From Symbiodinium natans (Eukaryota; Sar; Dinophyceae; Suessiales; Symbiodiniaceae): a stretch of 64,000 nucleotides of DNA. Position numbers and translations under genes: made by a program. Location of the stretch: positions 332,022 through 396,021 of the forward strand of contig CAJNDS010002489.1 in the NCBI GenBank assembly GCA_905221605.1, in the 5' to 3' direction. The notes beneath the pieces were generated by a model. The model did no database searches. It saw only the letters and a list, made by a program, of their open reading frames with translations, and had not been told where the DNA came from. Below, piece by piece: positions 2,999-60,832 of the stretch (position 1 is its first letter; every line of letters begins with the position of its first letter).

Positions 2999-3003
2999 TA
3001 GAA

Positions 3004-42763: not shown

Positions 42764-45682
42764 CACAGTACCTCTTTCTGGTCCGTTCCTGGAAACTCTC
42801 CCGACCGAAACATGAGCCCTCAAGCCGCCATGAGGAAAATTAGACTTACACCCTGAAGGCCTCATTGACGCAAAGCCCGTCGAAACTGAGGAGGGTAGCA
42901 AGAGACCTTGGGTCGTTTGCGGATCGTTTCGCCCACCCTCCCCGGCACCCCCCCCCTCCCCCCCGCCCCTGAGAAAAAAAAGCAAGCATCCCTCGCTCAA
43001 CCACCTCACCTAAAGCCCGAATCCCTCCTCCCAATATTACAGTCTTTTAAGTATACCTATGGGTGGAAGCGCCCAAGGATCCTGCCAAGTCTCGACAGGG
43101 AACCTCCCCCCCCCCCCCCCCGCCACACACAAAAAGAAGACAAGAAGGAAGGACTTGGAGTGCTCAGCAGGAAAGATCACGCACTTCACTACTCCGCAGT
43201 TGTTGGCCCCCCCCGCCCTGTGCCTCCAAAAAAATAATCTTGCAGCTAGCACCTGAGGCTTGAAAGGTTTGGGAACCCGAACTCCCTTCTTTTTTGCAAC
43301 TGGACTGTAATCGACTGCCACCACCCGAAACCCTAAACCCTAAACCCAAAACCCGAAACCCTAACCCCTAAACCCAAGAGTGATATTTGCCCGGGCTTCT
43401 AGGGCCCGAGCACCGTGTGCAAGTGCAGAAAGTCACGCGCTTGGAGCACCTGACGGTTTAGGGTGTAGGGTTTAGGGTTTATGGGGTTTAGGGTTTGGGG
43501 TTTGGGGTTTGGGGTTTGGGGTTTGGGGTTTGGGGTTTAGGGTTTAGGGTTTAGGGTTTAGGGTTGCTTGAAGCCTTTCGTCTCCTCCCACCCTGGTGTC
43601 GGCCTGCCGCGTGTGCACCCGAGAGAGCCCACCGAGGAGCTCCAGGAAGTGTTTGGAGTACCTCTCTTTGCGGTTTTTGTAGGTTCAGGGTTCAGGGTTC
43701 AGGGTTCAGGGTTCAGGGTTTAGGGTTTAGGGTAACCCGACCTGCACTCGCGCTAAGGTTTCAGGTTTCGGGTTTTAGGGGTTGTAGGGTTCAGGCTTGG
43801 AGGTTCCGTTGCTAGGCAAAGCTGCTGAGTTAACGAGCCTAGTCCCGAAAAGACCACAGTTACTCGGAGCAACGAAGTGACAGCTGCGTCAAGCTATATC
43901 AAGCCCCACCGAGAACCGAGGATTTAGGGTTTAGGGTTTAGAGAGAACCGCGCGTATGCATTGCATCCGAACCGGACTCTTCATATGCCGGCTGCGGGAC
44001 AGAAAACTCAAAATGAAAGGTCATCTACACTTCGATACGTCCAAGCTTCCTCAACCCATCAAAGCAACGAGCGGCTTCCACAACACCAAGGAAACATTCT
44101 TCGACGGCCCGCCTGCTGCAGGCGCCTTATTTATTTATTTTCATTTTTTTTTGTGGGGGGGGGGTCCTTGTAGTATATTTGTAAAGGGACCATATAACAG
44201 GAAGGAAACTATTAATTAGTCATTATTCCGGCCCCCAAAAATACAGGTCTCGCATGGCTGCATGAGCGGGCCTGTCAAGTCCCAAACGGCAGGACATGTC
44301 GAAGAGCCTCAAGACCTGCAGTGCATTCGGAGTTGGGGGTTTAAGGGCTTGGGAGTGTTTTCTCTCCCCCCTCCCAGCACGCACGCACGCGCGCGTACGC
44401 ACACACGCACACTGACTGTATTCTTTCTGTTGGAGAATTTCAGACTGTATTCTTTCTTTTGGAGAGTTTCAGGCTTCGGGGGGTCTTCTTGTGAAGGGAC
44501 CTTGGTTTAGGCTTTTCCTTGTTTTGATTTTGTTTTTTGTGGGGGGGGGGGGGGGGGGGGGGCTGCAGGGTATTGACCTCTTAAGATCGGCCAACGCGTG
44601 AGGTAATCAAAGAAGGTGTGGCCACGACATGGTGGTCTACGGCATCTACGGTGTCTACATCGAGGCAGACATGCTCCGTGATGCAGGGGAGGGGGGGCCG
44701 GCATTCTTCGGCTGCGAGGGCAACATGTCCCAGCCAAAGTCTGTCATTGCGCGCCTGCGTGACGTTGCCAGGATTGGTGTTCTCTTCGATGAAGGAGCCG
44801 CACGCTTCGAGCCTCATCTTGCCATTTCATCATGGGCTAATTATAAAAAAGGTCGAAATGGGTGAATCCACTCTCGAACCTATAGGCCTATATGCAACCA
44901 AGAACGCCGGAAGGCTTTGTGAGCTGCTTTCTGAAATTCCACAACTTGAGGCCCAGAGGCAGCCCGTCCATCTGGTACTTGTCCGCAGCCCGGTACACTT
45001 GAAGGGCCTGGCCGTGGCTGCTTGTGTTCTGAGACCGTGATGAAGGCTTCAGGGCCTTCAGGGTTCGGGAGAACTTTGGGGGTATGGGGCAAAAGGCCGT
45101 TGCAAGACTTTCGGAGCAGGGGTATGCAATGGCTTGAAACTACCCCCAGCCGCAGGACTCGGGGAATCGAAACACCAAGCAAGGCCGAACCTTGCCAGAT
45201 AAGCCAGCCCGTCCACAGCAAGAACCGGCCTTTCCCTCCAAGCACGAAGACCGCACCCCCAAAAGACCGTCAGCTTCCGACATCTTTGATTGCAGAAATA
45301 CTATAGAGTTTAGGATGGGCGCCCTGCTCTCTTTTGTGGTCATCGGTACCTCTGCCATCAAACCTTCCAGCACCACAGGCGTCGAAGCTCTGAGGCTGAG
45401 GCTTCTTTAGGGATTCCAGACCCAGGAGTAACCCAGGAATAAACAGTGTGCCCCTTTTTGGTTTTGAAATTTTGAGGGGGTCATAAGGGAACCCCAACCC
45501 TAAAAAAGGGAAAAAAAGGGCCTACTCCGGCTCCTAGGGTTACAAAGAAGCAATCATGGCGGAGCGCATTGTCCGGCGAAATGAGAGGGTCCAAATGGTG
45601 CACGTAGCGAAGCATGCACTTGAACCTCGCTGTCTACTAGGGCTTTTGCACGGGGGTCTACAAACCCTCAACCCTTCAACCC
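42764..45682. other. Non-coding stretch with arrays and poly(C/G)
   Basis: CCCTAAA at 43329-43375; TTTAGGG/TTTGGGG (about seven perfect GGGGTTT units) at 43486-43564; TTCAGGG units at 43682-43730; poly(G) at 44539-44562. Plus-strand frames at 44618-45040 and 44629-44865 and a minus-strand frame at 44880-45245 overlap and show no known motif. Confidence 0.6.
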
Positions 45683-45724
45683 TTCAACCCTAAACCCCTA
45701 AACCCCTAAACCCCTAAACCCCTA
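45683..45724 (+). repeat. CCCCTAAA array, left flank of the retrotransposon
   Basis: About four units of the 8-nt variant CCCCTAAA, which continue on the far side of the retrotransposon at 56917. Confidence 0.9.
45720..45724. other. Target-site duplication, left copy (CCCTA)
   Basis: CCCTA precedes the left LTR and recurs after the right LTR. Removing the element and one copy restores a continuous CCCCTAAA array. Confidence 0.85.
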
Positions 45725-46066
45725 TCAAGAGCGCGGGGCTCTTGAGGTCCAGCAAACGACATGGCAGCTTGGAGGCTTGTGCTTGGCTCTGGCTCGGCTT
45801 GTACTCCTTGTACGAACACCGCTTCACCACCAGAGGCCACTTTTCCTCACACTGCAGCACCGAAGTCCATCGGCCAGTCGAGCGGTCCTACCCTACCACA
45901 GAAAGGGCGACCACACAACACGCCACAACAACACACACAAAGGCACATGCGACCTGTTGCCTGCATGTCTGTGCTGCAACTGCTTCTTGTTCCGACTTTG
46001 CCTACGGCATGTCCTGGAACCACAAAGCCAAAGCAACAGGTGCATCTCATTCCACACCTTTCATCA
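45725..46066 (-). repeat. 3' LTR of the copia element
   Basis: Identical by eye to 56575-56916 (constant offset of 10,850 bp). It follows a purine tract on its internal side and ends at the CCCTA target duplication. It should supply the polyadenylation region. The terminal hairpin (45725-45745) lies next to the host DNA here and could act as an RNA structure near the transcript end, but no poly(A) signal is evident. Confidence 0.93.
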
Positions 46067-46075
46067 CCCCTCCTT
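46067..46075 (-). promoter_or_regulatory. Polypurine tract for plus-strand priming
   Basis: AAGGAGGGG on the element strand lies immediately upstream of the TGATGA start of the 3' LTR. Its position and nine-purine composition are what plus-strand DNA synthesis needs. Confidence 0.75.
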
Positions 46076-46282: not shown

Positions 46283-49200
46283 TCAGCCCGTTCTGGTAGG
46301 TCTCAAGCTTCGCTGTTGCCCACCATGCCCATATAGCGACTGTCCACCGGCTTCTCGACAGCATCTGCACAGCGTCCTCTGCGACACCTGGTCCACATTG
46401 CGAAGACCCCAACATCCACGATGCCAGTGGTAGCAATCTCCTCCCGGACCATGGTACAAGACCCCATCGAACGGAACCTGCACCACTGTCGGCGTCGAAG
46501 CCGGTAGCATCTCCTGCGTCTGAACCCCAATGTCTCTTCGTACAGGACGTTCAGGAAATAGGGCTGTAGGATCCACGGCAACCACTCGATTGGCCGGAGC
46601 ACTGCTTGCCCTCGGTCCAACTCCACCAGGTTCGCCCAAACCACCCACACGCACTGAGGTCACCCCATCTCTCACCTGCACTGATGTCGAGGGTCCAGCT
46701 TCACGACGCTCTGGAAAATACTTCGCAGCCAAATGACGAAGCCTCTCTTCTTCTTCCAGGCTCCTTGCCTTGGCCAGCAACGCCAACACTTCACGGTGTT
46801 CGGCCTTTTCTCCAGATCTCATCGCCTTCAAGCTCACAACCTTCTTTGTAGAGCCCTTCAAGCATTCCCACACAGCCACCACAGCTGTAACCAGTATCAA
46901 GACCACCAGCCACATTTCCCAGTCTGAAGCCAGAGCTTCTTTCAGCTGCACAGAAGTCGTCGCGTCACCCTTAACCCCACACACCATAGAGCACATCGTA
47001 GCTAACTTCAACGCCCAATCAGCCTGGAACTTCACCCCTGCTTCTAGCGTCCTGCTGTTGCTACTGCTGACTGCTGCTGCTGCGGGTTCACGACTGCTGT
47101 TGACTGCTGTTGCTTCAAGACTGCTGTCGACCGCCGTGGTTTCGAACTTGACCTGCTTCTGTCCACGTAGTACACGAAGCTCAGGGGGCCCATCTCGCAA
47201 ACTCCACTCGTCGAAGACCTCCTGAAGCCTCGCCTGGGGCACTTGTTTTGTCAAAACGTCTGCGAGCTGTCCCTGTCCTGGCTGGTGCTCCAACTCGATC
47301 TGGCCCGTGGCGATCATCTCCCGGATCCAGTGATGTCGGAGTTTGAGGTGTCTCGTCCTCCACGATCCCTCCCCAGTCAGAACTCCAATCGCAGCTGTGG
47401 AATCCACCTTCACGATGGTCCGTGCCGGCTTCAACCCCAAGTCTTCCAACGCCGACCTCACCGCTCGAAGCAAAGCCACTCCGTCGGACACTGCAATCAC
47501 CTCCGCCTCGGCACTCGACAAAGCGGTCAGTGATTGCTTCGAAGCCTTCCAAAGGATCGGATGACCCCTCCAAAAGACAACAGCCCCTGAGTAACTTTGA
47601 GCAGCAGTGGGAGCGAAGCTGGCGTCCGTGAACAGGACCAAGTCGTTGGCATGCTCGTGGTCCGGGCCCGGCAAGAAGAACTTCTTGTTGACGGTGCTGT
47701 TGAGATAGGCCACCATCTTTTTGCCCATCTTCACAGCCTCCCCTGCATTTCTCGTGACCAACGAGGACATCACTGCCATTGGGAATGCCAAATCCGGCCG
47801 CCCACGTTGGGAAGCCCACAACAGCTCTCCACACCGCTGCTGTGCCTCTTTCACCATGCTCGGATCCTGCTCATCCGTAGCGCTCCCTTCTGGGATTTCC
47901 CTCGCCATTGGCAGCTTGCTGAAGGACTTTACTTCCCGGCTTCGGACCAACTCCTGAAGGTAGCCCTGCTGGCCCACACAGTAGGTCCCATCGTCCAGCA
48001 TGCTAATCTCCAGGCCCAGAAACCGGACAGGTTTTCCTCGCTCCACCAAGCCATTGGTCTCCCATTGACTGCCCAACCATCCGAAGAACCCTCGCAAGAT
48101 GGAATCCGGCCCAGCCGCCAAGACGTCGTCCACATAGAAGACCACCAAGCCCGTCAAAGTCCACGTTCCAGGCTTCTCTTCCTTCAGGACCTTGTAGAGG
48201 TTGACGTCCGTCAAGCAGCCTTCCAACTTCACCGGCTTCCCATCATCGTCCTTCCACGTTGCAAGCCTTGCCTTTGAGTTGCGATGGTCCGTCCACCACT
48301 TTGGCGATTTCTTGAAACCATAAACTGCAGCGTCCACGACCCACAGCTCCCCCTCCTCGGCCAGGCCAGCTCTGATCGCTGCCCGGGGAGGCTCCATTGC
48401 ATACCCACGACCCGCTGGTAGTGGTGCAGCCAAGAAGGCGTTCTTCACGTCATCCGTCCCAATGCTCCACTTGTTGGCACTGGCTTCAGCGACCACAATC
48501 CGAACTCCATCGATTGTAGCTCCTGCCGCATACAGATCACCCACCTCCAGGCCCTCATTGGCGAAGTTTCCACAAGCCACCGCCCGCACTCGACGTCGGT
48601 ACTTCCCCTCCTCAGGCCTTGTAGGAGGCTTCACTGTGTACACGAGTTTGGACGGCACCACCACTGAATTTGGATCGGCCCGGAAACGTCTCACATCTTC
48701 ACCCCAAATCTTGTGGATAGCGTTCATGCCCACCATCGAGTCGACCTCCTTGGCCATAGGCTTTTTCCACTTTTCAATCGCCTCACTCGCCTCCTTCGGG
48801 TCAACGGTGTGCACGACCTGAAGCACCTCGTCCTCCTTCAAGTCGTTCAGCAACGCTTCAATCCCTGGGGTGTAAAGGCCCTCAGAGGTAGCCTTCCTCA
48901 GCATAGGCTCCATCCAGGATTCCTCTGGCTCGCCCAGCTCCTGAAACTCAACCTCCTCGAACAACATCATGTCGTCGACGATGAGCTTGTTCTCCCTCGC
49001 GGTTTCCACCCTCATTGGTGCCAAGCGAGGTTCACGATCATCTTGTGCAGGAGGGTCCCTACGTCCCATCCATGGCAACGCCGGCAATGGTGCCTCTTCC
49101 ACCACCACCCTTCGGTCCCAGTACAGGAGATACTCCACCCTTCCAAGGAACATGTTGTACACCTGGACGACCACCAACTCCTCCCAGTCCAACGTGTTCT

Positions 49201-52200
49201 CAGGCGTGGGGTCCACCACCGGAAACTCCTGCACATCCATGATAGTGACCAAATGCCTTCGGAATCCGTCCTCCGTGACCATGTAGACCTCAGGCTCAGT
49301 CTCCCAATCTTCCATGCTGTTGTACACCAACATTGGCACCACCTCATCTACGGTGTCATCCACGGGCAGAATCTCTCTCCACTGTCCACGAAAAGCATCA
49401 ATCACCTCTTGCCCGCTGTGAACGTCCGCTTCCCATCGTTCGTACTCATCCTCTTGAAGCCTCACAAACCTGGTGATCAGTTCCATCCTTCGATTCACCA
49501 GCTGAAGTGGTAAGGCATGAGGATTCGGTCCCGTGAACTTGTTCAAGCGAACCGAACTGCTGGGATCTCTCGGTTCCTGATCTCTCGATCTAGACCTCTC
49601 CCTTGGATTCACCGTGAAAGTGGTATAGTGGGACATGATAGCTCCCGCTCTCGCTGGACCTGCAGGAACCGTAGTAGCTGCCCCCCGTGGTGGCAGTTCT
49701 TGCAACGCTCGAGTCATCTCGCTCTCGTGGATGTACTCTTCCCGCGTGGCCTCAACCCAGCTCACATAGAGGTACTTGGTGTCTCTCCTAGACTCCACGT
49801 AGTACCCAAAGATTGCCGAAGTACCACCGGGGCCATTCCACACCATGGTGACCGTCGCCATGTAGATCAACCGATACCGAGGTGATCCAATCACCTGCTC
49901 GGTGACTCTCCTCTCCAGCACCGGCTCAGCATCCTCCGACAAGATGAGCTCCAAGCGATCCTTTTGCTTCCAGAACTGATAGGCCAAATCCTCCTTCCTA
50001 GCAGCCTGGAACACTTGCCTTTCCTTCGGCAATGAGTCCATTCGCCAATTCACCGTGAACGGCTCAACCTCATGCCCTTCCAAGTACGCTGCCAGGACGT
50101 TGACGTCAGTAGTCATTCGCATTGGTCTCAACCGAACCTGCTGCTGCCCGTCACCACCAGACCCAGTAGCGTGTTGAGGTACTTGGAAGCAACGTTGATC
50201 TCCCGAATCACCCGTTGCCTCCTCATCCATGACTTCCTCCGCTGTGACGAAGCCCAAATCATTCAGCACCTCTTGCTCATCACTCTTCACCCGGTGGAAG
50301 TCCCTGATGGAGTACGCCGCCACCACCAGCCGATTGCCTTCCCACTCCTGGGTAGCGTGCCACTTCCTCGGAAGAAACACAATTGGTTGTCTCCCACTAC
50401 CATCGTCCACAAACTCCTTGATGTGGCCCAACTTCTCCTTCAGCTCCACTGGGGTTTCACCTTCGGGCACTCCTTCAACCCACAAACCTCCCTTTGTGAA
50501 CTGAGAAATTGGCACCAGGTACGATGGCTGATGCTTGGAATTGTGGGAATCACGATGCATCACCGTCTTCGAGTTCTTGAAGATCACGAAGGAATTCCAC
50601 CTGCTGTCCAAGTGAGCAGTGCGGTTCTCGATGAAGCGATTGATCACCCTGGTGACATACGGGAACTTCCGGGTGTTGGCTCGAAGACCACCAATGCCTC
50701 CCCGGATGAACGCCCCCGACGACCAGGCCTTTTCTTCTTCCATATCCTCACCTGGTCTCTCTTCACACTTTCGAGGTGGAGGATCTCCTGGAAGTAGCTC
50801 GAACAGCTCCTCAACGATCTCCGACGTGACCTCCCACTCCTCGTACAAGACCTCGCGAGCAAACGCTTCAGCCTCCGAAACAGCATCACCACCGTGCTGC
50901 TCCACTTCTTCCAACTCGCCAGACACTGCACGGGCCATACGCGGTGGACCCTTTCCAGTCAGGCGACGTCGCACCGAACCGTCCCCTCCTCGGCACGGCT
51001 CATCCCCTTCATGGGGCGCTAAGGACTCGAAGACACCATCTCCAGGTTCAACTTCAGGAGGTCCAGGATCCACAAGGGCTGCCTTGGGCTTCACGTTCTT
51101 GGTATGCAAAAACGAGTCCTCTGCATACACCAAGTGGCCATCGTCCACCGAGTTGCTCAAGCCCAGGTACACTCCCTCGACCCATCTAGGCTCAAACTCC
51201 CTTCGAACCGTTTTCCCTCCTGAGGCGAAAGGTCTCCGCTTCACCATCACCTTAGCTCCAAACGTCGTTGCCAGCTTTGACACCTGTGACAACGCTTTGG
51301 CCCGTTGTTGTGCCGCCACTGCTTCAGCTGCACATGGCCAGAATTTCAGGTCCAACCTCGCCGATGCCAAGGCTGTCCTAGCTCGCTGCTTGATTGTCTT
51401 GATGGCCGCCTCAGCGCCACCATTTCCCTGAGGAATTCCGGGCACACTGGTAGTCACCCGAATCGCTTGACCATGCAGCCATTGCACCAAGCCCTTGTTG
51501 GTGAACTGTGCTGCCTTGTCCGAGTGGAAACGAAGAACAGGAAGGTTCAGGTTCCTGAGGTAGAGGACAATTCCCTGCACCACACTGGCCACAGTGCTTC
51601 CCTTGATGTCGGCCAGTCCATGTGCAAACAAGAGATTGGCTGCCTTCGGCGCCTTCACATCCTCCGGGATTTCTCTTGGCCTGGTCCCAACCACTATCTC
51701 CTTATCAGGGTCTTCAGCCTGCTCTGGATCAGGTACAGGACCATCATCAAGTAGATCCGGCTCGTAGTCATCCCAGTCGATCCCCTCCTCTTCGACCAAA
51801 CCAACACCACCTCCTTCGTCTTCGGCAAACGGATCTGCTTCACCCTCAGGCACCTCCACCTCAGGGTCATCCGCAGTCTCCTCCAGCTCGTTGGTGATGT
51901 AGGACTCCGGCAAAGTGTACTTCGCGACCAGCATGTAGCGAAGATTGCGGTTTCGCTCCTGACGCCCCCTTCCATGTGGGTTTACCCCCAAGGTGCGGAA
52001 GGGGCCAGCGATATCGATGTTCAGGACGAACAAACTCGGGTGGGATACTCGCCGGTGCTGATGTCCTGTCGCACCGTACGTGGTGCATTGCAAGCAGTCT
52101 CTTCTTGCCGGGTAGTGACCCGCTTTGACGTGGTCTCGCCACTGCTCCTGCGACATTGCTCTGAGAGTCGCAGGGTCCACGACAAAGTCACCCCGGGATA

Positions 52201-55200
52201 CCGCCTCCAACACCACTCGCTTCAATCCTGAGGCCAAACCACCATCTGAGACTTCTCTTCCCATTGGCTCCCCAGGTTGCACCCGCTTGTCCTTCAAGAC
52301 CTCCATGTTGTAGTTGGTGATGATCTCGGTGGGCCTCGTCACTGCCAATCCAAGTGCTCCTTGGTCACAAAGCACCCGGTCCATTGCAGTCGCCACCAAG
52401 AACCTTTCCCCCAACCTCACTTGCTGCTGCCCATAGCTGTACTCACCCCAGTTCAGGTTTCGCTCTGGTCCCGACCACACAAAACCAGTCTTCTCCTCAG
52501 GGTGCTTCGACGCTAGCCTCGCCAAGCAGTACAGCAACTTCACCTGGGCAGACTTCACGAAGACGGCCTCATCCTGAGCAGGCCCATGTGCCCCACCGGC
52601 CACAATGCATTTCAGCTTGCCCTTGACCGCAGCCCATAGCAAGGCCTGGTAGACATCCTGCTCAATGTTACCAGCCACCTTCAACACCATACGTCCCTCC
52701 TGCTCCAAGACCTTCAGGAAGCCATCCTCGTTCTCATGGGCAGGAAGATGCAGGATCCACTCGGGCGCCTGCAAGAAGGACTTCTTGACTCGTCGAGGAA
52801 GTGGAAGAGCCTTCAGGTAGTCCCAACCTTTTGCTAGGTTCAGCTCCACACACAACCTTGTCCTCAAAGCCTCAGGTAGCTCCCCAAACACAGGCCCCAT
52901 CAACGCCTTCCAGAGAGCATTCCTCGATCCTGAAGCCACGTAGTCGTCGAGATGCGTAGTCCACGGTGCAGTGTTAGCGCCCACCTTCAGGGCCTCCAGC
53001 TTCATCTGCAAGGTTTGCACCTCATCCCGAAACTCTTGAAGCTTGGCGTTCTCCACCTGCTCGATGATCTTGTCCGCCTCTGCCATGGTGAGCTCCGGAC
53101 ATCCAGCCTTCACGCTGGTTCGCAGCACCCCAAGTGTTGGGTGCACAATCTTCAAGCCCTTTCGTCCCCAAGATATCTCGCAACCAGCACGAACGAGGTC
53201 TCCCATGGGCAACAAAGGCTGAGTCGTTGTAGACGGTGTGAGTATAGATCCCGCTGGCGTCTGGTAGAGCTGAGTCCTCTCGTTGTTGGCCAGCACCACA
53301 CTCACCTGGTTTGCATCCTGAAGCTCATGAGGATCTCGAGGTTGTCGAAGAATGTTCGTAGCCCCAGAGTCAATGAGCACCGTTGGCACATCCAGCTCTG
53401 CCTTGAACATCCGAGGATCTCCTCCACGAGGTCGCACCACCACGTCTTCAACCCTCAAGGCTCTCAACCGAAGCTCATCCAGCTGCCTCTGGATCGATGC
53501 CAATCCTGGATGTCCACCTCCAGCTCCTTCTCCCACCAAAGACCTCAGAGCTTGTACCGCATCAGTCATCGCAGACTGGAGCTCCGAGTTGGGACTCGAC
53601 GCTGAGGTTGTCGTGGACACCGGTGATGTCGGCTGTGGCTCCGGTTCCGACACCATGCTTCTAGCTGCAGGCTCCTCCTTCGCCCGGCTCGGTTGGCTGT
53701 GGCCTCCACCACCGCCCTTTCCACCAGTAGAACTCGAAGGTCTCGACGCCAAGGCCTTCGTCGGACAATCCGCCGCTATGTGTCCTTCACCTCCACATTC
53801 AAGGCACCGCCCACGCTTGGAGATCCCTTCGAAGGAGTGCTTAAAGCGACACGTTTTCCCTCGGCGACATCCTTCAGGACTTTTGGCGAACCACGGACAG
53901 ATCTTCTGCTCGCCGTCCTTTCCTTTTCCAAAGGCTTCTTTTCCTTTGCCCTTTCCCTTGTCTCGCTCTCTTTCCTTGCCCTTGCCCTTGTCCCGATCCT
54001 TGTCCTTGTCGCGGTCTGTAGCCCCATCCTCAACCTGCATAGGCTTGGCCTTGGGCTCTGCACCACGACTGCTTCCCATCACCATCACACCTGCCAGCGT
54101 CTCCATCTCCGCCTTGAGGTGCTGCTGGTACTGCATGACAGTGGCCAACGTAGGCGACGTGTCGACCATCAAAGTGTTCTTGACCAGGGATGTCCTGAAT
54201 GCAGCGTCTGCATTCTTCTGCAGCACGCCTGCCACGATCACCGACAGCCCTCTAGCCAAGATCATCGGATCTGGGCAAGTGACAGCGATACCTTGAGCTC
54301 GCTGCATCCATCTCTCCCACTGACGCAAGGCCCGCACTGCCTGCTCTGCATCTGCCGCCTTGGTAGTCTCCGTCAACGACTTCAGGAGGTGCAGCTTCTC
54401 GGACTCGCCCCCCGGGCAGTACTGAACATACAGCCGGTAGACGATCTTCACCGCACTGCGAGTACACTGCCTCGCCACCAAGTCCCTCCGGACTTCCGGC
54501 GCCAATGCTGCCAGCAACATTCCAGCAGCTCGGGCATTGACACGAGCGTACCGCCCGTCGTCCAAATCCATTCCAGAGGGCCCTTGCATAGCCAACCTCT
54601 GGTAGGGCGTACTTGCCACCCACTTCGCGTAGTGCAACGAGACCTCACTCTTGACGGCCTCCCACCAAGCACCACTTCCATCACTGAGGTCTCGCATCGG
54701 CCCGTCAATCAGCTCCATCCAGTCTTGAATGACGACCGGGCTATCCTCAGCGCCAGGAGGATCCAATGCCGGCAAAGCTGCAATCCCAGGCTTCACCTGC
54801 TCCGGCTGACCCACCTTCTGGTTCATCATGTTCAGCTGTGCCTGCTGGAGCTGCTGGATACCTGCGGCCAGCATTCCAACCAGTCCCGGCTGATCTCCGA
54901 TCCCTCCACCAAACGAGGAACCGCCCACATTTCCAGCCCCAGAACCAGCCGACTGGTTCGGGCCACGAGTTGCACTCCTCGGCAACTCCCCTGCACTTTG
55001 CGGTCCACCTCCATACGCTTGAGGACCTCCAGGTGCTTGAGGAGCTCCAGGAACTTGGCCAACTCCCGACACACCACCACTTCCAATCTGCTGGTACCTT
55101 GTGGAACTTGAGGAACGCCAGGTAGCTGAGGACCATGTGGACCACGTGGACCTCCCGAAACGCCAGGTAGCTGAGGACCTTGTAGACCTCCCGAACCACC

Positions 55201-55609
55201 ATGTAGCTGAGGCCCTTTTTGACCTCCCGAAACACCAGGTAGCTGAGGCCCTTGTAGACCTCCCGAAACACCAGGTAGCTGAGGCCCTGTAGACCTCCCG
55301 AAACACCAGGTAGCTGAGGAGGACCTCCCAAACCACCAAGAAGCTGAGGACCTTGTGGACCTCCCGAAACGCCTGGTAGCTGAGGACCATGTGGACCTCC
55401 CGAACCACCAGGAAGCTGAGGACCTTGAGGAACTTGAGGAACGCCAGCTCCAGAAAGACCACCTTGTGCTTGAGATGTCCCGTGAAGTGAGCTACCTCCT
55501 CCATGAGGTACTCCGTGAAGTGGATCATCCCCTGGCACCTGAGGACCTCCTGGAACTCGACCAACTCCCTGCTCGGCCTCGCCCCCAGACTGTCTCCCAA
55601 AACCAGCAT
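46283..55609 (-). CDS. Retrotransposon ORF2: Gag-Pol polyprotein with dioxygenase-like domain
   Basis: An open frame of 3108 codons ending at TGA 46283-46285. The ATG at 55609 is only the first in frame; meaningful sequence starts about 55110, after the 36-nt repeat. In order: capsid-like helical region (about 294-520); a Lys/Asp/Gly-rich basic stretch (530-567); CCCH finger C571, C581, C587, H591; CCHC knuckle C602, C605, H610, C615; aspartic protease DSGAT (D747); pre-integrase HHCC (H1160, H1165, C1172, C1175); integrase D1199, D1364, E1400; dioxygenase-like domain (1647-1775); uncharacterised segment (1776-2290); RT with D2387 and YVDD (D2494, D2495); RNase H D2662, E2701, D2736, D2784; and a tail with a membrane segment and Cys/His cluster. 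All catalytic residues are present and there is no internal stop, so this copy may be active apart from the Gag frame problem. Copia polyproteins are usually about 1300-1500 residues. Confidence 0.93.
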   Translation of the reverse strand: MLVLGDSLGARPSRELVEFQEVLRCQGMIHFTEYLMEEVAHFTGHLKHKVVFLELAFLKFLKVLSFLVVREVHMVLSYQAFREVHKVLSFLVVWEVLLSYLVFREVYRASATWCFGRSTRASATWCFGRSKRASATWWFGRSTRSSATWRFGRSTWSTWSSATWRSSSSTRYQQIGSGGVSGVGQVPGAPQAPGGPQAYGGGPQSAGELPRSATRGPNQSAGSGAGNVGGSSFGGGIGDQPGLVGMLAAGIQQLQQAQLNMMNQKVGQPEQVKPGIAALPALDPPGAEDSPVVIQDWMELIDGPMRDLSDGSGAWWEAVKSEVSLHYAKWVASTPYQRLAMQGPSGMDLDDGRYARVNARAAGMLLAALAPEVRRDLVARQCTRSAVKIVYRLYVQYCPGGESEKLHLLKSLTETTKAADAEQAVRALRQWERWMQRAQGIAVTCPDPMILARGLSVIVAGVLQKNADAAFRTSLVKNTLMVDTSPTLATVMQYQQHLKAEMETLAGVMVMGSSRGAEPKAKPMQVEDGATDRDKDKDRDKGKGKERERDKGKGKGKEAFGKGKDGEQKICPWFAKSPEGCRRGKTCRFKHSFEGISKRGRCLECGGEGHIAADCPTKALASRPSSSTGGKGGGGGHSQPSRAKEEPAARSMVSEPEPQPTSPVSTTTSASSPNSELQSAMTDAVQALRSLVGEGAGGGHPGLASIQRQLDELRLRALRVEDVVVRPRGGDPRMFKAELDVPTVLIDSGATNILRQPRDPHELQDANQVSVVLANNERTQLYQTPAGSILTPSTTTQPLLPMGDLVRAGCEISWGRKGLKIVHPTLGVLRTSVKAGCPELTMAEADKIIEQVENAKLQEFRDEVQTLQMKLEALKVGANTAPWTTHLDDYVASGSRNALWKALMGPVFGELPEALRTRLCVELNLAKGWDYLKALPLPRRVKKSFLQAPEWILHLPAHENEDGFLKVLEQEGRMVLKVAGNIEQDVYQALLWAAVKGKLKCIVAGGAHGPAQDEAVFVKSAQVKLLYCLARLASKHPEEKTGFVWSGPERNLNWGEYSYGQQQVRLGERFLVATAMDRVLCDQGALGLAVTRPTEIITNYNMEVLKDKRVQPGEPMGREVSDGGLASGLKRVVLEAVSRGDFVVDPATLRAMSQEQWRDHVKAGHYPARRDCLQCTTYGATGHQHRRVSHPSLFVLNIDIAGPFRTLGVNPHGRGRQERNRNLRYMLVAKYTLPESYITNELEETADDPEVEVPEGEADPFAEDEGGGVGLVEEEGIDWDDYEPDLLDDGPVPDPEQAEDPDKEIVVGTRPREIPEDVKAPKAANLLFAHGLADIKGSTVASVVQGIVLYLRNLNLPVLRFHSDKAAQFTNKGLVQWLHGQAIRVTTSVPGIPQGNGGAEAAIKTIKQRARTALASARLDLKFWPCAAEAVAAQQRAKALSQVSKLATTFGAKVMVKRRPFASGGKTVRREFEPRWVEGVYLGLSNSVDDGHLVYAEDSFLHTKNVKPKAALVDPGPPEVEPGDGVFESLAPHEGDEPCRGGDGSVRRRLTGKGPPRMARAVSGELEEVEQHGGDAVSEAEAFAREVLYEEWEVTSEIVEELFELLPGDPPPRKCEERPGEDMEEEKAWSSGAFIRGGIGGLRANTRKFPYVTRVINRFIENRTAHLDSRWNSFVIFKNSKTVMHRDSHNSKHQPSYLVPISQFTKGGLWVEGVPEGETPVELKEKLGHIKEFVDDGSGRQPIVFLPRKWHATQEWEGNRLVVAAYSIRDFHRVKSDEQEVLNDLGFVTAEEVMDEEATGDSGDQRCFQVPQHATGSGGDGQQQVRLRPMRMTTDVNVLAAYLEGHEVEPFTVNWRMDSLPKERQVFQAARKEDLAYQFWKQKDRLELILSEDAEPVLERRVTEQVIGSPRYRLIYMATVTMVWNGPGGTSAIFGYYVESRRDTKYLYVSWVEATREEYIHESEMTRALQELPPRGAATTVPAGPARAGAIMSHYTTFTVNPRERSRSRDQEPRDPSSSVRLNKFTGPNPHALPLQLVNRRMELITRFVRLQEDEYERWEADVHSGQEVIDAFRGQWREILPVDDTVDEVVPMLVYNSMEDWETEPEVYMVTEDGFRRHLVTIMDVQEFPVVDPTPENTLDWEELVVVQVYNMFLGRVEYLLYWDRRVVVEEAPLPALPWMGRRDPPAQDDREPRLAPMRVETARENKLIVDDMMLFEEVEFQELGEPEESWMEPMLRKATSEGLYTPGIEALLNDLKEDEVLQVVHTVDPKEASEAIEKWKKPMAKEVDSMVGMNAIHKIWGEDVRRFRADPNSVVVPSKLVYTVKPPTRPEEGKYRRRVRAVACGNFANEGLEVGDLYAAGATIDGVRIVVAEASANKWSIGTDDVKNAFLAAPLPAGRGYAMEPPRAAIRAGLAEEGELWVVDAAVYGFKKSPKWWTDHRNSKARLATWKDDDGKPVKLEGCLTDVNLYKVLKEEKPGTWTLTGLVVFYVDDVLAAGPDSILRGFFGWLGSQWETNGLVERGKPVRFLGLEISMLDDGTYCVGQQGYLQELVRSREVKSFSKLPMAREIPEGSATDEQDPSMVKEAQQRCGELLWASQRGRPDLAFPMAVMSSLVTRNAGEAVKMGKKMVAYLNSTVNKKFFLPGPDHEHANDLVLFTDASFAPTAAQSYSGAVVFWRGHPILWKASKQSLTALSSAEAEVIAVSDGVALLRAVRSALEDLGLKPARTIVKVDSTAAIGVLTGEGSWRTRHLKLRHHWIREMIATGQIELEHQPGQGQLADVLTKQVPQARLQEVFDEWSLRDGPPELRVLRGQKQVKFETTAVDSSLEATAVNSSREPAAAAVSSSNSRTLEAGVKFQADWALKLATMCSMVCGVKGDATTSVQLKEALASDWEMWLVVLILVTAVVAVWECLKGSTKKVVSLKAMRSGEKAEHREVLALLAKARSLEEEERLRHLAAKYFPERREAGPSTSVQVRDGVTSVRVGGLGEPGGVGPRASSAPANRVVAVDPTALFPERPVRRDIGVQTQEMLPASTPTVVQVPFDGVLYHGPGGDCYHWHRGCWGLRNVDQVSQRTLCRCCREAGGQSLYGHGGQQRSLRPTRTG
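46286..47215 (-). other. C-terminal tail of Pol: membrane segment and Cys/His cluster
   Basis: About 300 residues follow RNase H, where copia polyproteins normally end. After a Ser/Ala linker comes a hydrophobic run WLVVLILVTAVVAVW (about 2896-2917), long enough for one membrane span. Next are a charged, probably coiled-coil helix (HREVLALLAKARSLEEEE), a disordered stretch, and a cluster with C3059, H3061, H3063, C3066 and a CRCC near the end, probably zinc-binding. The C-x-x-H...C-G-L...C-x-C layout recalls small Ada-like metal-binding modules, but this is tentative. The tail could be an envelope-like or membrane-tethering addition. Confidence 0.6.
47250..48739 (-). other. Reverse transcriptase and RNase H domains
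   Basis: The RT (about 2290-2540) contains the copia-type start PMAKEVDSM, the first catalytic Asp in DDVKNAFLAAPL (D2387) and FYVDDVL (D2494, D2495). RNase H (about 2655-2790) has D2662 (LFTDASF), E2701 (SSAEAEV), D2736 (VDSTAAIG) and D2784 (LADVLTK), and the RHLKLRHHWIRE block characteristic of copia RNase H. All four acidic residues are intact. Confidence 0.95.
48740..50284 (-). other. Uncharacterised Pol segment between dioxygenase and RT
   Basis: Residues about 1776-2290 have no counterpart in ordinary copia polyproteins. They include aromatic-rich beta-like stretches (MATVTMVWNGPG, KYLYVSWVEAT, YLLYWDRRVVVEE), an Arg/Ser-rich linker (RERSRSRDQEPRD) and acidic helical parts just before the RT. 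I recognise no motif. It may be one or two folded domains or long linkers around the dioxygenase-like domain. Confidence 0.6.
50285..50671 (-). other. 2OG-Fe(II) dioxygenase-like domain (TET/JBP-like) inside Pol
   Basis: Residues about 1647-1775 of ORF2. Visible elements in order: WNSFVIFKNS, then MHRDSHN with the iron-binding HxD pair (H1685, D1687), a strand ending GGLWVEG (about 1706), and FLPRKWHATQEW with the distal His (H1751). A basic residue nine positions later (R1760 in GNRLVVAAYSIR) suits the 2-oxoglutarate carboxylate. This order and the GG-hydrophobic strand between HxD and the distal His are typical of the double-stranded beta-helix dioxygenases, and closest to the TET/JBP nucleic-acid oxygenases. 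The iron triad and Arg are all present, which suggests an active enzyme. The family match is by pattern only. The substrate is unknown. An AlkB-like or prolyl-hydroxylase-like member is the main alternative. Confidence 0.65.
51401..52142 (-). other. Integrase zinc-binding and catalytic core
   Basis: The HHCC motif is compressed: HX4HX6CX2C (1160-1175) instead of the usual ~30 residues between the second His and first Cys. The core carries D1199 in NIDIAGPF, D1364 in FHSDKAAQF and E1400 in GNGGAEAAIK. D1364 and E1400 are separated by exactly 35 residues, the D,D-35-E spacing. Between the first two Asp there are 164 residues instead of about 60. The surplus is a strongly acidic Glu/Asp/Pro segment, probably a loop. 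The C-terminal part (FEPRWVEGVYLGL) matches the copia integrase tail. Confidence 0.9.
53765..53899 (-). other. Nucleocapsid: CCCH finger plus CCHC zinc knuckle
   Basis: A CX9CX5CX3H finger (C571-H591) is followed by a classical CX2CX4HX4C knuckle (C602-C615). Both are preceded by about 35 residues dominated by Lys, Arg, Asp and Gly. The knuckle is the normal RNA-packaging motif of Gag. A CCCH finger next to it is an addition not found in standard copia. Confidence 0.85.
54050..54730 (-). other. Capsid-like (Gag core) region
   Basis: Residues about 294-520 of ORF2 are predominantly helix-forming, with Trp-rich turns (DWMELIDGPM, GAWWEAV, ALRQWERWM). They lie just before the zinc-binding nucleocapsid part, the position of the copia Gag core (UBN2/Retrotran_gag type). 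The assignment rests on position and character; I see no diagnostic motif. Confidence 0.55.
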
Positions 55610-56612
55610 TCATCAGCTCTTGTACCTGTCGTCGCAAAGCCACCACCTCGGTCTGCACCTGGTCTCTGCGATCCCTCATGTACTGTCCCAGCTGACGTTG
55701 CACTTCAACCCGAATTTCTGACGAACCCGTAGACCCTTGCGACGTTTGTTCTCCATGAAGTAGAGGTCCACGAGAAGGCCAACTGTTCATTCTCTCCACC
55801 GCCCTCTGGTCAAACAACGCGGAGTGACCCCCACCTTCCACGTGCTGGGTCATCACCTGGAGCTCTTCCGGCGGGGAGAAATTCCAAGGCGATTGCCTGG
55901 CTGCCGACTGCGGTGTTGCTGCTACGGCTGCTGCTCTGCTGCTGTGGCTGGGGGGCGTTCCCGGGGCCTGATTGGGTGTTAGTCCTAAAGACCCTAACAT
56001 CCTATCCCCTAAACCACCACCACCAGTCGTCGTCGCTCGCAGAAAGTCTGTCAGCCTTGTCATCCATCCATATGCGCCCGTTCCAGTCTGGACGTACCTC
56101 ATCTCCAGCCCAGTTGTACGCGACGCAGCTGTCGGCGAACCAGCACTCGCAGTGCCTTCCATGGCGGTCTGCACCATCTGCACTGCACCAAATCTTTCGG
56201 CTGCCACTGCAGTCTCCAAGCCACCATTGCTGGACTCCAAAACCCTATGTTGCTCCACCACTGGCCAGTTGTCATTGACCTGCTCCATCTCCAGGCCACC
56301 AGTAACACCAGGGTCTCCACTGCCCAGCACACCACTATTTGTCTGCCCATCGGCAACAGCAGGTGTACTCAGGTCTCCACCCTGAACCGGTCCCACAACA
56401 ACTGCACCAGTCCCAATTGCACCAGCACCATCTGTACCAGCACCAACTGCACCAGTACCATTTGTACCAGCACCAACTGTCAAAGATCCGTAGTTCGGCC
56501 CAGCTGTCTCACCAACCAGCGTAGGGGAACTCAATAATCCAGCGGTTGCGCCCAGGCCGCTTGGGCTCATAACCTCAAGAGCGCGGGGCTCTTGAGGTCC
56601 AGCAAACGACAT
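54747..56612 (-). CDS. Retrotransposon ORF1: N-terminal low-complexity part of Gag
   Basis: I start this frame at the ATG at 56612 inside the 5' LTR. The open frame extends upstream only to non-ATG codons, and a second in-frame ATG lies in the primer-binding site at 56570. The protein begins MSFAGPQ and is rich in Gly, Ala, Ser, Thr and Gln. It has short GTGA-type repeats near the start (about 56395-56490). Near 55610-55740 is a charged, probably coiled-coil stretch containing [19 protein letters not shown], followed by the Gly-Pro-Gln repeat ([10 protein letters not shown] units). About 55287, inside that repeat, a one-base loss takes this frame out of the repeat's sense, and what follows to the stop at 54747 is not meaningful. 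The capsid-like region lies in the next frame, so ORF1 encodes only the N-terminal part of Gag. A +1 shift anywhere in the overlap would join it to ORF2. Confidence 0.7.
55110..55440 (-). repeat. 36-nt coding tandem repeat in gag
   Basis: About nine units encode [12 protein letters not shown]-type 12-mers in one frame, [12 protein letters not shown] in the second and [12 protein letters not shown] in the third. All three frames are open. One unit (about 55281-55315) is 35 nt because CCCTTG has become CCCTG near 55287. Another unit has lost 6 nt. A second offset is needed near 55105 to reach the downstream Gag frame ([10 protein letters not shown]). Confidence 0.85.
56563..56574 (-). promoter_or_regulatory. 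Primer-binding site: initiator tRNA-Met anticodon arm (half-tRNA)
   Basis: The 12 bases directly inside the 5' LTR read GGTTATGAGCCC on the element strand. Their complement, GGGCTCATAACC, is the anticodon stem-loop of initiator tRNA-Met: a GGG stem, a CTCATAA loop with anticodon CAT, and the start of the 3' stem. Most LTR elements pair with the tRNA 3' end (TGG...). Pairing with the anticodon arm, so that a cleaved 5' tRNA half serves as primer, is known from Drosophila copia. The inferred primer end is near tRNA base 40. The site necessarily contains ATG (56568-56570), which is in frame with gag. Confidence 0.85.
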
Positions 56613-56916
56613 GGCAGCTTGGAGGCTTGTGCTTGGCTCTGGCTCGGCTTGTACTCCTTGTACGAACACCGCTTCACCACCAGAGGCCACTTTTCCTCAC
56701 ACTGCAGCACCGAAGTCCATCGGCCAGTCGAGCGGTCCTACCCTACCACAGAAAGGGCGACCACACAACACGCCACAACAACACACACAAAGGCACATGC
56801 GACCTGTTGCCTGCATGTCTGTGCTGCAACTGCTTCTTGTTCCGACTTTGCCTACGGCATGTCCTGGAACCACAAAGCCAAAGCAACAGGTGCATCTCAT
56901 TCCACACCTTTCATCA
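56575..56916 (-). repeat. 5' LTR of the copia element
   Basis: In element orientation this LTR starts TGATGAAAGG at 56916 and ends GCTCTTGA at 56575. The TG start is canonical, but the end is GA rather than CA. It should carry the promoter and transcription start. I see no TATA box and no TTTT box of the kind proposed for dinoflagellates. The last 38 bp contain an ATG (56610-56612) in frame with the gag frame, so translation may begin inside the LTR if the transcript starts upstream of it. The final 21 bp form a hairpin: an 8-bp perfect stem TCAAGAGC/GCTCTTGA around GCGGG on the plus strand. Confidence 0.93.
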
Positions 56917-56921
56917 CCCTA
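56917..56921. other. Target-site duplication, right copy (CCCTA)
   Basis: CCCTA follows the right LTR and matches 45720-45724. Five bp is the usual duplication length for copia integrases. Confidence 0.85.
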
Positions 56922-56968
56922 AACCCCTAAACCCCTAAGCCCCTAAACCCCTAAGCCCCTAAACCGTA
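56917..56968 (+). repeat. CCCCTAAA/CCCCTAAG array, right flank
   Basis: About six 8-nt units, two of them CCCCTAAG. This is the other half of the array interrupted by the retrotransposon. Confidence 0.9.
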
Positions 56969-57541
56969 AAGAGCCGACAAACCCTAGTCGCGAAAGGAAA
57001 AAGCAAGCGGTCTGAGCAAGAGGCAGTGGTGAGGACTGGGACAGCCACACCCTCAAGCCAAGAGCCTGACTCTTACTGGAGGCCTGCTTGACCCAACCAA
57101 CTCTTCTCTTCCATCCCTTCAGCCTGCTCTGGAGCCAGAGCATCAGACAATCTGCGGCCCCCCCCCCCCCCTCGAATCACGTGACAAGGGCTGGAATTCA
57201 CCTCAAGCTGCTATTATGTACGGACAGACAGACAGACATACAAACACACCCGGCCCCCCTCATGGGCCCAGAACCCCCGCCAGGTTGTTGAGCCAGCTCG
57301 AGAGCGACAGCGACTGTGAGTTCCAACTCATCCCCCAATGCTCGGCACAGGACGCGCTGGGCTCGATGTCGGTGACGGCCACGTAGTGGTGCTGTCCGTT
57401 TCGGAACCTCTGTGTTGCAGAGACTGGTATTCAGGTTGAGCAGCCGTTGGCAGTCTGGGCACCACAGGAGCTGCGATTGCCACATTATTGAAATTGCTAT
57501 TCCGCTATTGTATTTTCATACTATCTGAAATTTCATGCATG
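56969..57541. other. Non-coding stretch
   Basis: No supported gene. A minus-strand frame (57198-57485) has no recognisable domain. Poly(C) at 57157-57170. Confidence 0.45.
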
Positions 57542-57765
57542 CCTAAACCCTAAACCCTAAACCCTAAACCCTATACCCTAAACCCTAAACCCTAAACCCG
57601 AAATTATCTTCTCATGCTACGGCATGATTTCTGTGCAGCTGGGGAAGCTGCCCACCTTGCTGCGCCTGGCCAAATTCCCAGCCTCGGCCGCAGCTCCCAA
57701 CTTGGAGCTGAAGCAGTGGGTTTAGGGTTTAGGGTTTAGGGTTTAGGGTTTAGGGTTTAGGGGCG
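57542..57765. repeat. Facing telomere-like arrays
   Basis: CCCTAAA (57542-57601, about eight units) and TTTAGGG (57718-57762, six units) on either side of a 115-bp unique segment. Confidence 0.9.
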
Positions 57766-57845
57766 GATCCCTTGATCTACAGCCCACAAAAAGCATCTTC
57801 GATCGAGTAGCCTAGCACCTGCTTGACTCCCCCCCCACCCCTACA

Positions 57846-58110
57846 GCGTTTAGGGTTTAGGGTTTAGGGTTGCTTAAGAAGCCCCACCACAAGAATGAGA
57901 GTATTCTTCCTTATCAGGGACATATGGGCATTTCCCCATTATGATCCATACTTCAGGACCCCCCCAAAAAGGGTACCCCTATTTTCGGAAACGCCCGTAA
58001 TTATAGGGGTTATTGCCTTTTATTTGGGCGGGGGTTTTTAAGCAACCCTAAACCCTAAACCCTAAACCCTAAACCCTGAACCCTAAACCTAAACCCTAAA
58101 CCCTAAACCC
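57846..58110. repeat. Family C element bounded by inverted telomere-like repeats
   Basis: TTTAGGG units (57846-57869) lead directly into TTGCTTAAGAAGCCCC (57870). The right end TTTTTAAGCAA (to 58045) leads directly into CCCTAAA units (to 58110). The telomere-like words therefore extend the inverted repeat outward. Inside is a family D right arm (CCCCTATTTTCGGAAACGCCC, about 57973). Confidence 0.75.
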
Positions 58111-58202
58111 CTCTCTTTCTTTTCCCCACCGCAAGGACTGTGCTGAGATCGCGCAGCTTGGCACCTGGAGGCTCCCTGGATCCGACGTTGCCGGCGCCAC
58201 GC

Positions 58203-58322
58203 TTTAGGGTTTAGGGTTTAGGGTTTAGGGTTTAGGGTTTAGGGTTTAGGGTTTAGGGTTTAGGGTTTAGGGTTTGGGGTTTAGGGTTTAGGGTTTAGGG
58301 TTTAGGGTTTAGGGTTTAGGGC
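58203..58322 (-). repeat. TTTAGGG array
   Basis: About seventeen units with one TTTGGGG. Confidence 0.97.
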
Positions 58323-58482
58323 TCCAGGAGGTTCCAGAGGTTCTGGGGGGTGGGCGGGGGTGGCACCAGACAAAGCCGGAGCTTCAATTTCAACACTTGC
58401 AGGTTTTTTTACAGGCTGATGCAAGCTCCGCAGGGGGGCACCACTTGAGAAACCTTGAAATAAGACATGCTCTCTGCTTCTT

Positions 58483-58943: not shown

Positions 58944-59033
58944 GAGGGTTTTACGAAAATGAGGGTTCCAGTATAGACCCCCCCCCAGACAGTAGGGCTT
59001 CCTTGTAACAAGCACCCCTAATTTTGGAAACCC
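58944..59033. repeat. Family D fold-back element abutting a CCCTAAA array
   Basis: GAGGGTTTTACGAAAATGAGGG pairs with CACCCCTAATTTTGGAAACCC, and the right end merges with CCCTAAA units at 59031-59075. Confidence 0.7.
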
Positions 59034-59075
59034 TAAACCCTAAACCCTAAACCCTAAACCCTAAACCCTAAACCA

Positions 59076-60387
59076 CCATAGCGAAAGGGGGGGGGGGGGT
59101 GTTCGACCTCTGCACCTTGCAACAGGCAAGGATCCTATACTTCTAAGTTCTTGGCCCCCTAAATAAGGCCACCCTTATACGCTTGAGGTTTTATAAGGGT
59201 TTTGGGGAGTTTAGGGCTTTACTAGTTATGGGCTAGAAGGCTTGGGATGTTTGAGATGCTTAGAGCTCAGGCCCCTCTCCCTCGAGCCATAGGCGGCTTT
59301 CCCGCCAAGTCTCGGCATTTTGCACAAGAGCAGATCTTATGCGTAGTGGTACGAGTCTCATCTACGTCCAGGGCTCCCCCAATGTTGTTCTGCTCCTCTC
59401 TGTCTGTCTGTCTGTCTGTCTTCTCAAGCTTGGGTTTCTGCATTCTCTCTCAGCCGACACCCGAAACCCGAACACGCAAGCCTCAATCCGAATCTAGTCA
59501 GCTGACTGAGCCTCCAACCCGTTTTTGCAGCTGTCATGGGTTCCCCTACTACCCCCCTCTATACTCCCCCCTCCCCCCCCCCCACCAGGTTCCCCCCAGA
59601 ATTAAGGCTAATTAGGGATGACCAGCAGTGAATCCTGATACTCCGAATCTGCCTTGTCTTTCATCTGTGTGCTCGGGCGCGGCTCTCCTCTGCGAGCCCT
59701 CCTTGGAGGGCACGTGCAAAACCCTCTGAAAAACAATCCTGAGTCTGATCCTCTTAAACCCAGCAAGGCAGCAAGGCTTAAGGGAACATATAAGATGCCC
59801 CTTAAGGGCCTACCTCGCCTCTGTTTCCACACGCTTTTTTTTGGGGGGCCCTGGTATGCGGAGGCTGCGCCCTGGTGGTGCCAGCCTCCTCAAACCCCAT
59901 CCCCACCGGTGCCACTTCGCCTCAAGGCTGGCAAGCGGCGATGAGAGCTAAACCGAGTTTAGGGAGATTTAGGGTTCAGAGGCTATAGGGTATAGGGTTT
60001 CATAGGGTATAGGGTACCCTGGGTTTAGGGCTAAGCCCCGAAACCCAAAAAACCAAAAATCCTAAACTGGGAAGGTTCTCGGCTGATCTCCTGAGTCTTC
60101 TTTGCTTTCAAAGATAGTTTCAAAGAAGTCGGGGACATAACTGGGCATGTTGTTTTTCATTCATAGGGGTACCCTCAAAATATTACAACCCGTATTTGGG
60201 AACTATCTTTTGAACCTGGTACCCATATTCCCCTAACCCCTAAACCCTAAAACGTCACGGTGGCAGACTTTGGGTGGAACAGAGAATAGGTGGCAGGGCT
60301 TTGTGTGGCGACTGACCAACCAATCTGTCCACAACATGGTACAAGGCTTGTAGTGGTGCATGATCTCAATGGCGGAAGGGTTTAGGG
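59076..60387. other. Non-coding stretch
   Basis: Poly(G) at 59087-59099, a (CTGT)n run at 59399-59420 and poly(C) at 59571-59584. Frames at 59247-59615 and 59654-59944 lack recognisable domains. Confidence 0.5.
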
Positions 60388-60471: not shown

Positions 60472-60752
60472 GTTTAGGGTTGCCAGTTACGAGTCAGGAG
60501 CAGGAGTAGCAGGGCAAGTGGTCCTTGTCGAGGTTAATGCTCTAACTGGCTGTCCCTGTTTAGAGTTTATGATTGGGGGATTATCCCCGGCTGAGATCAC
60601 TACGAGTATACCTTGACACTCGTATACAACCACCATCAATATGCACGACCTTTTGTTGCTACGCTCCTATGGTGATTTCTGCTACGACTCTGATTATGAC
60701 TCATGACGATTGCTATCGCTCTGTTCTTATACTTTTGCAGCCACCCTTTTGC

Positions 60753-60832
60753 ATAAACCCTAAACCCTAAACCCCTAAACCCTAAATAAACCCCTGATCC
60801 CCTAACCCTAAACCCTAAACCCCCTACCCCTC
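60753..60832 (+). repeat. CCCTAAA array, degenerate
   Basis: About seven units mixed with CCCCTAAA and CCCTAAATAAA. Confidence 0.8.

Follow-up and report, generated by a model that had tools for sequence, protein, structure and literature searches.

A predicted TET-like 2-oxoglutarate oxygenase domain in the Pol polyprotein of a Symbiodinium natans copia element and in other retroelements of the same genome

The Ty1/copia retrotransposon described here lies in a stretch of 64,000 nt of the Symbiodinium natans contig CAJNDS010002489.1 (assembly GCA_905221605.1, positions 332,022 to 396,021), called the window below, and its Pol polyprotein contains a domain that is predicted to have the fold of the Fe(II)/2-oxoglutarate (2OG) oxygenases of TET-like type. 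The domain is common to several retroelement lineages, its activity and substrate being predictions. In the reading that is preferred here, and to which a probability of roughly 0.72 is given, Pol encodes a complete Fe(II)/2OG oxygenase domain that belongs by its fold to the TET/AlkB group of enzymes modifying nucleic acids, is nearest to TET, and would oxidize a pyrimidine in the DNA of the element. The observations in support of this reading are an open frame, conserved ligands, a predicted fold, purifying selection and the recurrence of the domain in several retroelement lineages.

An earlier note, made from the letters of this DNA, had proposed a TET/JBP-like dioxygenase domain at 50285-50671 (residues 1647-1775), in one unbroken frame between integrase and reverse transcriptase (RT). 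The translation puts H1685-x-D1687, GGLWVEG, H1751 and R1760 where the note had them, in a frame of 3108 residues without a stop; the location of the domain was correct, its size was slightly underestimated (Table 1). In an alignment of 43 rows from the same genome, consisting of the window copy and copies L030-L071 (L036 and L065 are identical in the domain), the four predicted ligands are kept almost without exception, H1685 in 42 rows and D1687, H1751 and R1760 in all 43, together with N1690 (42/43), G1707 (43/43), W1710 (43/43), W1756 (42/43) and G1758 (43/43). Twelve positions hold in 42 or 43 of the rows, all four predicted Fe and 2OG ligands among them, so that the family has the conserved HxD...H triad and the basic 2OG ligand of the Fe(II)/2OG superfamily, and the family-wide loss of the His, Asp and Arg residues, which the note had named as evidence to the contrary, was not found. 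A chance motif is ruled out by this conservation. In 24 close copies (L002-L025), positions 1685, 1687, 1690, 1707, 1710, 1751, 1756, 1758 and 1760 are unchanged in 24/24.

The fold was predicted with AlphaFold2 for residues 1619-1792, using a structure alignment (A1) of 43 rows, that is the conservation set with L025 replacing L065, in which identity to the window copy is 25-46% for the divergent rows and 97% for L025. The model is confident, with a predicted local distance difference test score (pLDDT) of 92.2 and a predicted template modeling score (pTM) of 0.88; prediction from the single sequence of the domain gave no usable model (pLDDT 34). The predicted fold is a double-stranded beta-helix and its best matches are solved Fe(II)/2OG oxygenases, so that the fold comparison suggested in the note did not refute it. 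Both fold rankings, by Foldseek and by VIA-align, are headed by nucleic-acid enzymes, and the VIA-align Z scores of the model against solved folds are 9.7 for NgTET1, 8.6 for TET2 and 8.5 for AlkB (families missing from the VIA-align list were given no weight as evidence). Among Pfam families the most frequent match is Tet_JBP (PF12851), found in 16 of the 43 A1 members with a best E of 2.7e-6. A profile of 16 members (A2), chosen after the Pfam scan for their likeness to TET, had two matches among the PDB sequences, both of them TET, the fungal CcTet being recovered.

Selection on the domain was estimated from the ratio of nonsynonymous to synonymous differences per site (pN/pS), which is 0.15 over 276 pairs of the 24 close copies, a value biased low because the ranking of the copies relied on similarity in this same protein domain. 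The corresponding ratio is 0.39 in the linker upstream of the domain (regions offset by four codons) and 0.53 on the integrase side, where two copies have stops and decayed or misaligned copies are mixed in. Among the 43 rows, 17 of 903 pairs passed the filter on synonymous differences per site (0.05-0.65) and were usable for the ratio of substitution rates (dN/dS). Ten of them, which are not independent, have dS of at most 1.05, and nine of these give dN/dS of 0.05-0.16, the pair L037/L038 giving 0.47; the seven with dS above 1.2, near saturation, give 0.40-0.76. Judged by these codon differences, the domain is under purifying selection, for which the note had proposed a test.

The protein was also used as a query against the S. 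natans genome (759 Mb, 2543 contigs), which returned 1568 candidates. The best 150 were scored; they thus represent the top of the candidates rather than a random draw, and in a few cases two of them are fragments of a single copy. All are 29-100% identical with E of 7.3e-17 or better, and 149 of these best 150 have no stop inside, a count that bears on the reading of the copies as dead relics. A domain private to one element is ruled out by these genome-wide matches. Around such matches 70 loci were taken (30 + 40), among them L003, the locus of the window copy itself. Eight divergent copies (L072-L079), selected by hand, were examined over about 5.4 kb each. One of them, L072, is arranged like the window element, with integrase motif, oxygenase and the RT family RVT_2. 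In three others the oxygenase precedes RVT_2, which scores 74.1 bits in L073, 32.4 in L075 and, below the cut-off of 31.6, 24.7 in L078. Reading by eye places the oxygenase of L073 and L078 ahead of the zinc and core motifs of the integrase as well; L075 is related to L078 with 54% identity. In L074 a CCHC knuckle is followed by the oxygenase and, much later, by integrase-like motifs seen by eye, with no RT in the fetched piece.

L077 has a sub-threshold RVT_1 match downstream of the oxygenase (25.8 bits vs 29.6), and L076 and L079 have no Pfam match within their pieces of about 5.4 kb; L076 is similar to L077 over almost its full length (BLAST E 0) and to L079 over two stretches (4e-85). The piece adjoining L076, L080, has Exo_endo_phos (36.1 bits) and RVT_1 (75.7 bits) downstream of the L076 oxygenase, in an open frame that is in phase with L076 by coordinates and inside a 3382-aa open frame from the genome search. 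By this domain content L076/L080 is a long interspersed nuclear element (LINE). As read from sequence, the domain thus spans at least two retroelement orders and occupies two positions within copia Pol, and the recurrence in related elements that the note had asked about extends to other copia lineages and a LINE of the same genome. In the tree built from the 43 domains, a branch with support 91/90 has on one side the three copies whose oxygenase precedes the integrase; the two copies whose oxygenase lies between integrase and RT form no group, and the three LINE-like copies group weakly (40/67). Because only 9 of the 43 rows are labelled, the tree gives a hint, and only a hint, of exchange of the domain between elements.

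A side observation concerns other segments of these proteins. In the oxygenase's own frame, L077 (about 255-500), L076 (about 296-520), L078 (about 260-520) and L074 (about 1250-1460) have segments with PPC or SLPC and E-x-P, which to the eye look like divergent C5-methyltransferase-like domains. A degenerate relative of this segment may be present in the window at 52100-52822 (Pol residues 930-1170), where GGAHGPAQD stands, by eye, at the place of the PPC-type motif. Pfam gave no methyltransferase match at E<=5 for the four pieces searched (L077, L074, L078 and the window 52100-52822 region).

Several points weigh against the reading of a TET-like oxygenase. Some non-ligand positions are equally conserved (G1632 42/43, G1637 42/43 and G1641 43/43), and the active site has exceptions: L071 carries R instead of H1685, and L035 carries D instead of N1690. 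The linkers downstream have pN/pS as low as that of the domain (0.17 and 0.08, regions offset by four codons); Pol around the domain is also constrained, and therefore the distinctive evidence is which residues stay unchanged, to which the low bias of the ratio noted above has to be added. As to the fold, AlkB is level with TET2 in VIA-align and 1.2 Z below NgTET1, a bacterial 2OG oxygenase scores 8.4, and CcTet reaches only 7.8, a level that the tool rates as common. None of the 43 members reaches the Tet_JBP cut-off of 34.9 bits (best 27.1), and the window domain alone has no match to any Pfam, PHROG or NCBIfam model. A scan of the whole genome with Tet_JBP also gave 0 matches at E<=0.001, which is uninformative because 14 control genomes were equally silent. 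The term TET/JBP-like used in the note is thus supported by the nearest fold and the most frequent Pfam match, and strict TET/JBP membership is not established, because the Tet_JBP matches stay below cut-off and AlkB, level with TET2, trails the best TET by about 1 Z.

One alternative is an AlkB-like demethylase that would strip N6-methyladenosine (m6A) or 1-methyladenosine (m1A) from the genomic RNA of the element, or act on alkylated DNA; the AlkB domain of orchid Gypsy elements is the precedent in vitro. This is unlikely: the AlkB model PF13532 matches 0 of the 43 members vs 16 for Tet_JBP, and is absent among the 16 Pfam families that they match at E<=10 (the HMMER filters drop most matches above about 0.1); the 16-member profile retrieved two PDB sequences, each of them a TET, and NgTET1 stays ahead of AlkB in the model comparison. 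A protein hydroxylase of the prolyl 4-hydroxylase (P4H) or Asp/Asn-hydroxylase type, with Gag or host proteins as substrate, draws on matches of 2OG-FeII_Oxy_3 in 2/43 members (best 8.5e-4) and of Asp_Arg_Hydrox in 1/43 (1.2e-4), and on two enzymes that do not act on nucleic acids, JMJD7 and YcfD, at Foldseek ranks 11 and 15 with E near that of NgTET1, all of which count equally among the points against a TET-like enzyme. The order HxD, GG, H, R is moreover common across the P4H/Asp-Asn-hydroxylase superfamily. Since nucleic-acid enzymes nevertheless head both fold rankings and Tet_JBP is matched so much more often, a protein hydroxylase seems rather improbable. That the oxygenase fold is catalytically idle and retained in Pol as a structural or nucleic-acid-binding spacer would agree with the constraint on the adjoining linkers and with the conserved positions outside the ligands. 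Such a spacer is nonetheless hardly credible: at 25-46% identity to the window copy, all four predicted ligands belong to the 12 positions that hold in 42 or 43 of the 43 rows, which binding alone would not need.

If Pol does encode a TET-like oxygenase, the enzyme would presumably be packaged in the particle alongside integrase and RT. It could then oxidize a methylated or plain pyrimidine, 5-methylcytosine (5mC) to 5-hydroxymethylcytosine (5hmC) or T to 5-hydroxymethyluracil (5hmU), in the element's own cDNA or insertion, during or after reverse transcription, being delivered with the integrase. The new copy might thereby escape methylation-based silencing or match the modified DNA of the host. 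A wider proposal, which is tentative and at present rather doubtful, is that an exchangeable module for DNA base oxidation is common to the retroelements of this genome, where some lineages have it beside a methyltransferase-like segment; it would edit their own cDNA at integration (5mC or T) and possibly add to the 5hmU or 5hmC load on dinoflagellate repeats.

Outside the genome, protein database searches with the window domain gave nothing at E<=0.001, and at E<=10 one ENA protein (P0002, 311 aa, E 7.5e-12). By eye, P0002 tracks the window Pol closely as far as the point where the domain begins, beyond which it continues in another reading, and it is therefore silent on the catalytic residues. 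Single-sequence searches of the PDB sequences gave two chance matches for the window domain and seven for L055, whereas a 37-residue piece had no match. Viral and prokaryote contigs held no relative of the domain, and the viral ones none of the RT; in phage tblastn searches the window domain had no match and L055 four chance matches (E 2-9). The single match to the motif pattern, L001 (HRDLHN), is apparently an unrelated phage protein and was discarded.

The element itself is a Ty1/copia long terminal repeat (LTR) retrotransposon, with RVT_2 over its cut-off, an integrase motif upstream of RT, LTRs and a target-site duplication; by motif reading and Pfam the order in Pol is protease, integrase, oxygenase, RT and RNase H (Table 1). 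Of the two flanking domains that the note had called intact, RT is confirmed by its profile match, and the integrase stands by its motif, because the Pfam rve match is weak (E 0.032, under the cut-off); PHROG and NCBIfam transposase models match the same stretch at E 2e-4 to 4e-3. The spacing from D1199 to D1364 (51518-52015), with 164 residues between, part of them acidic, seems unusually long. Direct repeats of 345 identical bases enclose the element, from which an LTR length of 342 bp is obtained by subtracting three bases (polypurine tract on one side, flank on the other); the identity of the LTR pair implies a recent insertion. The putative primer-binding site GGTTATGAGCCC would, as we read it, be the complement of the anticodon arm of tRNA-Met; the 64-kb window contains no tRNA gene for comparison. 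Priming of copia elements uses a primer-binding site for a tRNA-Met half-molecule. The target-site duplication is partly ambiguous because the insertion sits in CCCTAAA/CCCCTAAA-type repeats; interstitial arrays of TTTAGGG/CCCTAAA type lie at 43293-43734, 45655-45736, 56892-56981, 57517-58351, 59007-59088 and 60727-61003, one pair of them flanking the insertion. These TTTAGGG-type repeats and the kinds of elements present point to a dinoflagellate host; the spliced leader sequence does not occur in the window. Within the gag/pol overlap (54747-55609) the frames differ in the window copy, and copy C1908 (L006) has an open frame of 3457 aa. After RNase H, the Pol C-terminus (46286-47182, residues about 2810-3108) combines a hydrophobic stretch of membrane-like character, WLVVLILVTAVVAVW, with a tail rich in Cys and His, CYHWHRGCW...CRCC.

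Table 1. Features of the copia element, in coordinates of the window.
Feature	Position	Strand	Basis or remark
Pol open frame	46283..55609	minus	3108 aa, no internal stop (translation)
Putative gag open frame, 647 aa, upstream of pol	54747..56690	minus	different frame from pol; overlap within 36-base repeats
CCHC zinc knuckle, residues 602-615	53765..53806	minus	Pfam zf-CCHC E 0.003, 18 bits (below cut-off 20.8); motif
Aspartic protease motif IDSGA, residues 746-750	53360..53374	minus	motif only
Integrase catalytic motif D1199...D1364-x35-E1400	51410..52015	minus	motif reading; profile matches weak
Predicted oxygenase domain, Pol residues about 1625-1790	50240..50737	minus	AlphaFold2 model, fold matches, alignments
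HRDSHN, with N1690 and the predicted Fe ligands H1685 and D1687	50540..50557	minus	starts at residue 1685, codon 50555-50557
GGLWVEG, residues 1707-1713	50471..50491	minus	translation; G1707 and W1710 conserved
H1751 to R1760 (third Fe ligand and 2OG ligand, both predicted), including W1756 and G1758	50330..50359	minus	WHATQEW at 1750, RLVVAAY at 1760
RT (RVT_2), residues 2317-2560, YVDD at 2492	47930..48661	minus	Pfam E 9.1e-12, 45.5 bits vs cut-off 31.6
RNase H motifs, residues 2660-2788, FTDASF at 2660	47246..47632	minus	motifs only
5' LTR, 342 bp	56575..56916	minus	identical to 3' LTR
3' LTR, 342 bp	45725..46066	minus	identical to 5' LTR
Putative primer-binding site GGTTATGAGCCC	56563..56574	minus	adjoins 5' LTR
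Putative polypurine tract AAGGAGGGG	46067..46075	minus	just before 3' LTR
Target-site duplication CCCTA, low side	45720..45724	.	sequence flanking 3' LTR
Target-site duplication CCCTA, high side	56917..56921	.	sequence flanking 5' LTR

Oxygenases and methyltransferases borne by mobile elements are known from other systems. In dinoflagellate DNA 12-70% of thymine is replaced by 5hmU (PMC6723414), which in Breviolum is enriched over most repeats (PMC11071213), and a base-oxidizing enzyme carried by the repeats would, if true, be a concrete and testable candidate source for part of it. In Symbiodinium, SymbioLINE and SymbioDIRS elements carry DNA methyltransferases (DNMTs), and the Copia superfamily is reported there without a DNMT domain (PMC5890265); the likeness lies in the capture of a DNA-modifying enzyme by retroelements, probably in the same host group, and L076/L080 has, like SymbioLINE, a LINE endonuclease and RT, here downstream of the oxygenase. 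The captured enzyme of SymbioLINE and SymbioDIRS is, however, a methyltransferase and not an oxygenase, and the terms TET, JBP, 2OG and oxygenase are absent from the text of that paper (PMC5890265). A Ty3/Gypsy element of Phalaenopsis, whose AlkB domain demethylates m6A in RNA in vitro, is a further case of a 2OG/Fe(II) oxygenase borne by an LTR retrotransposon; unlike the window domain it is of AlkB type (PFAM13532) and is encoded in an additional open reading frame (PMC9289625). In the same angiosperm screen the 15 unusual domains were all in Gypsy-type elements and none in Copia-type (PMC9289625). A literature search gave, among the matches listed, no further TET-like domain in retrotransposons beyond the cases cited here, most subscription papers and all bioRxiv preprints being outside its coverage.

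The closest parallel is found in fungi, where DNA transposons (Kyakuja, Zisupton, EnSpm, Helitron and others) carry TET/JBP genes that are thought to help them escape methylation-based silencing, and where a 2025 study reports no retrotransposon encoding TET/JBP (PMC12730594). As in the fungi (PMC12730594), a TET-type dioxygenase whose HxD (or HxE) is followed by a further H occurs in several unrelated element lineages, whereas the domain described here lies inside retroelement polyproteins and below the Pfam Tet_JBP cut-off. NgTET1 of Naegleria gruberi, which shares 15% identity with the window domain, is in turn a cellular enzyme and not part of a Pol polyprotein. Compared with the known cases in fungal DNA transposons, the predicted TET-like domain of S. 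natans is present in many copies, both in a LINE and within copia Pol.
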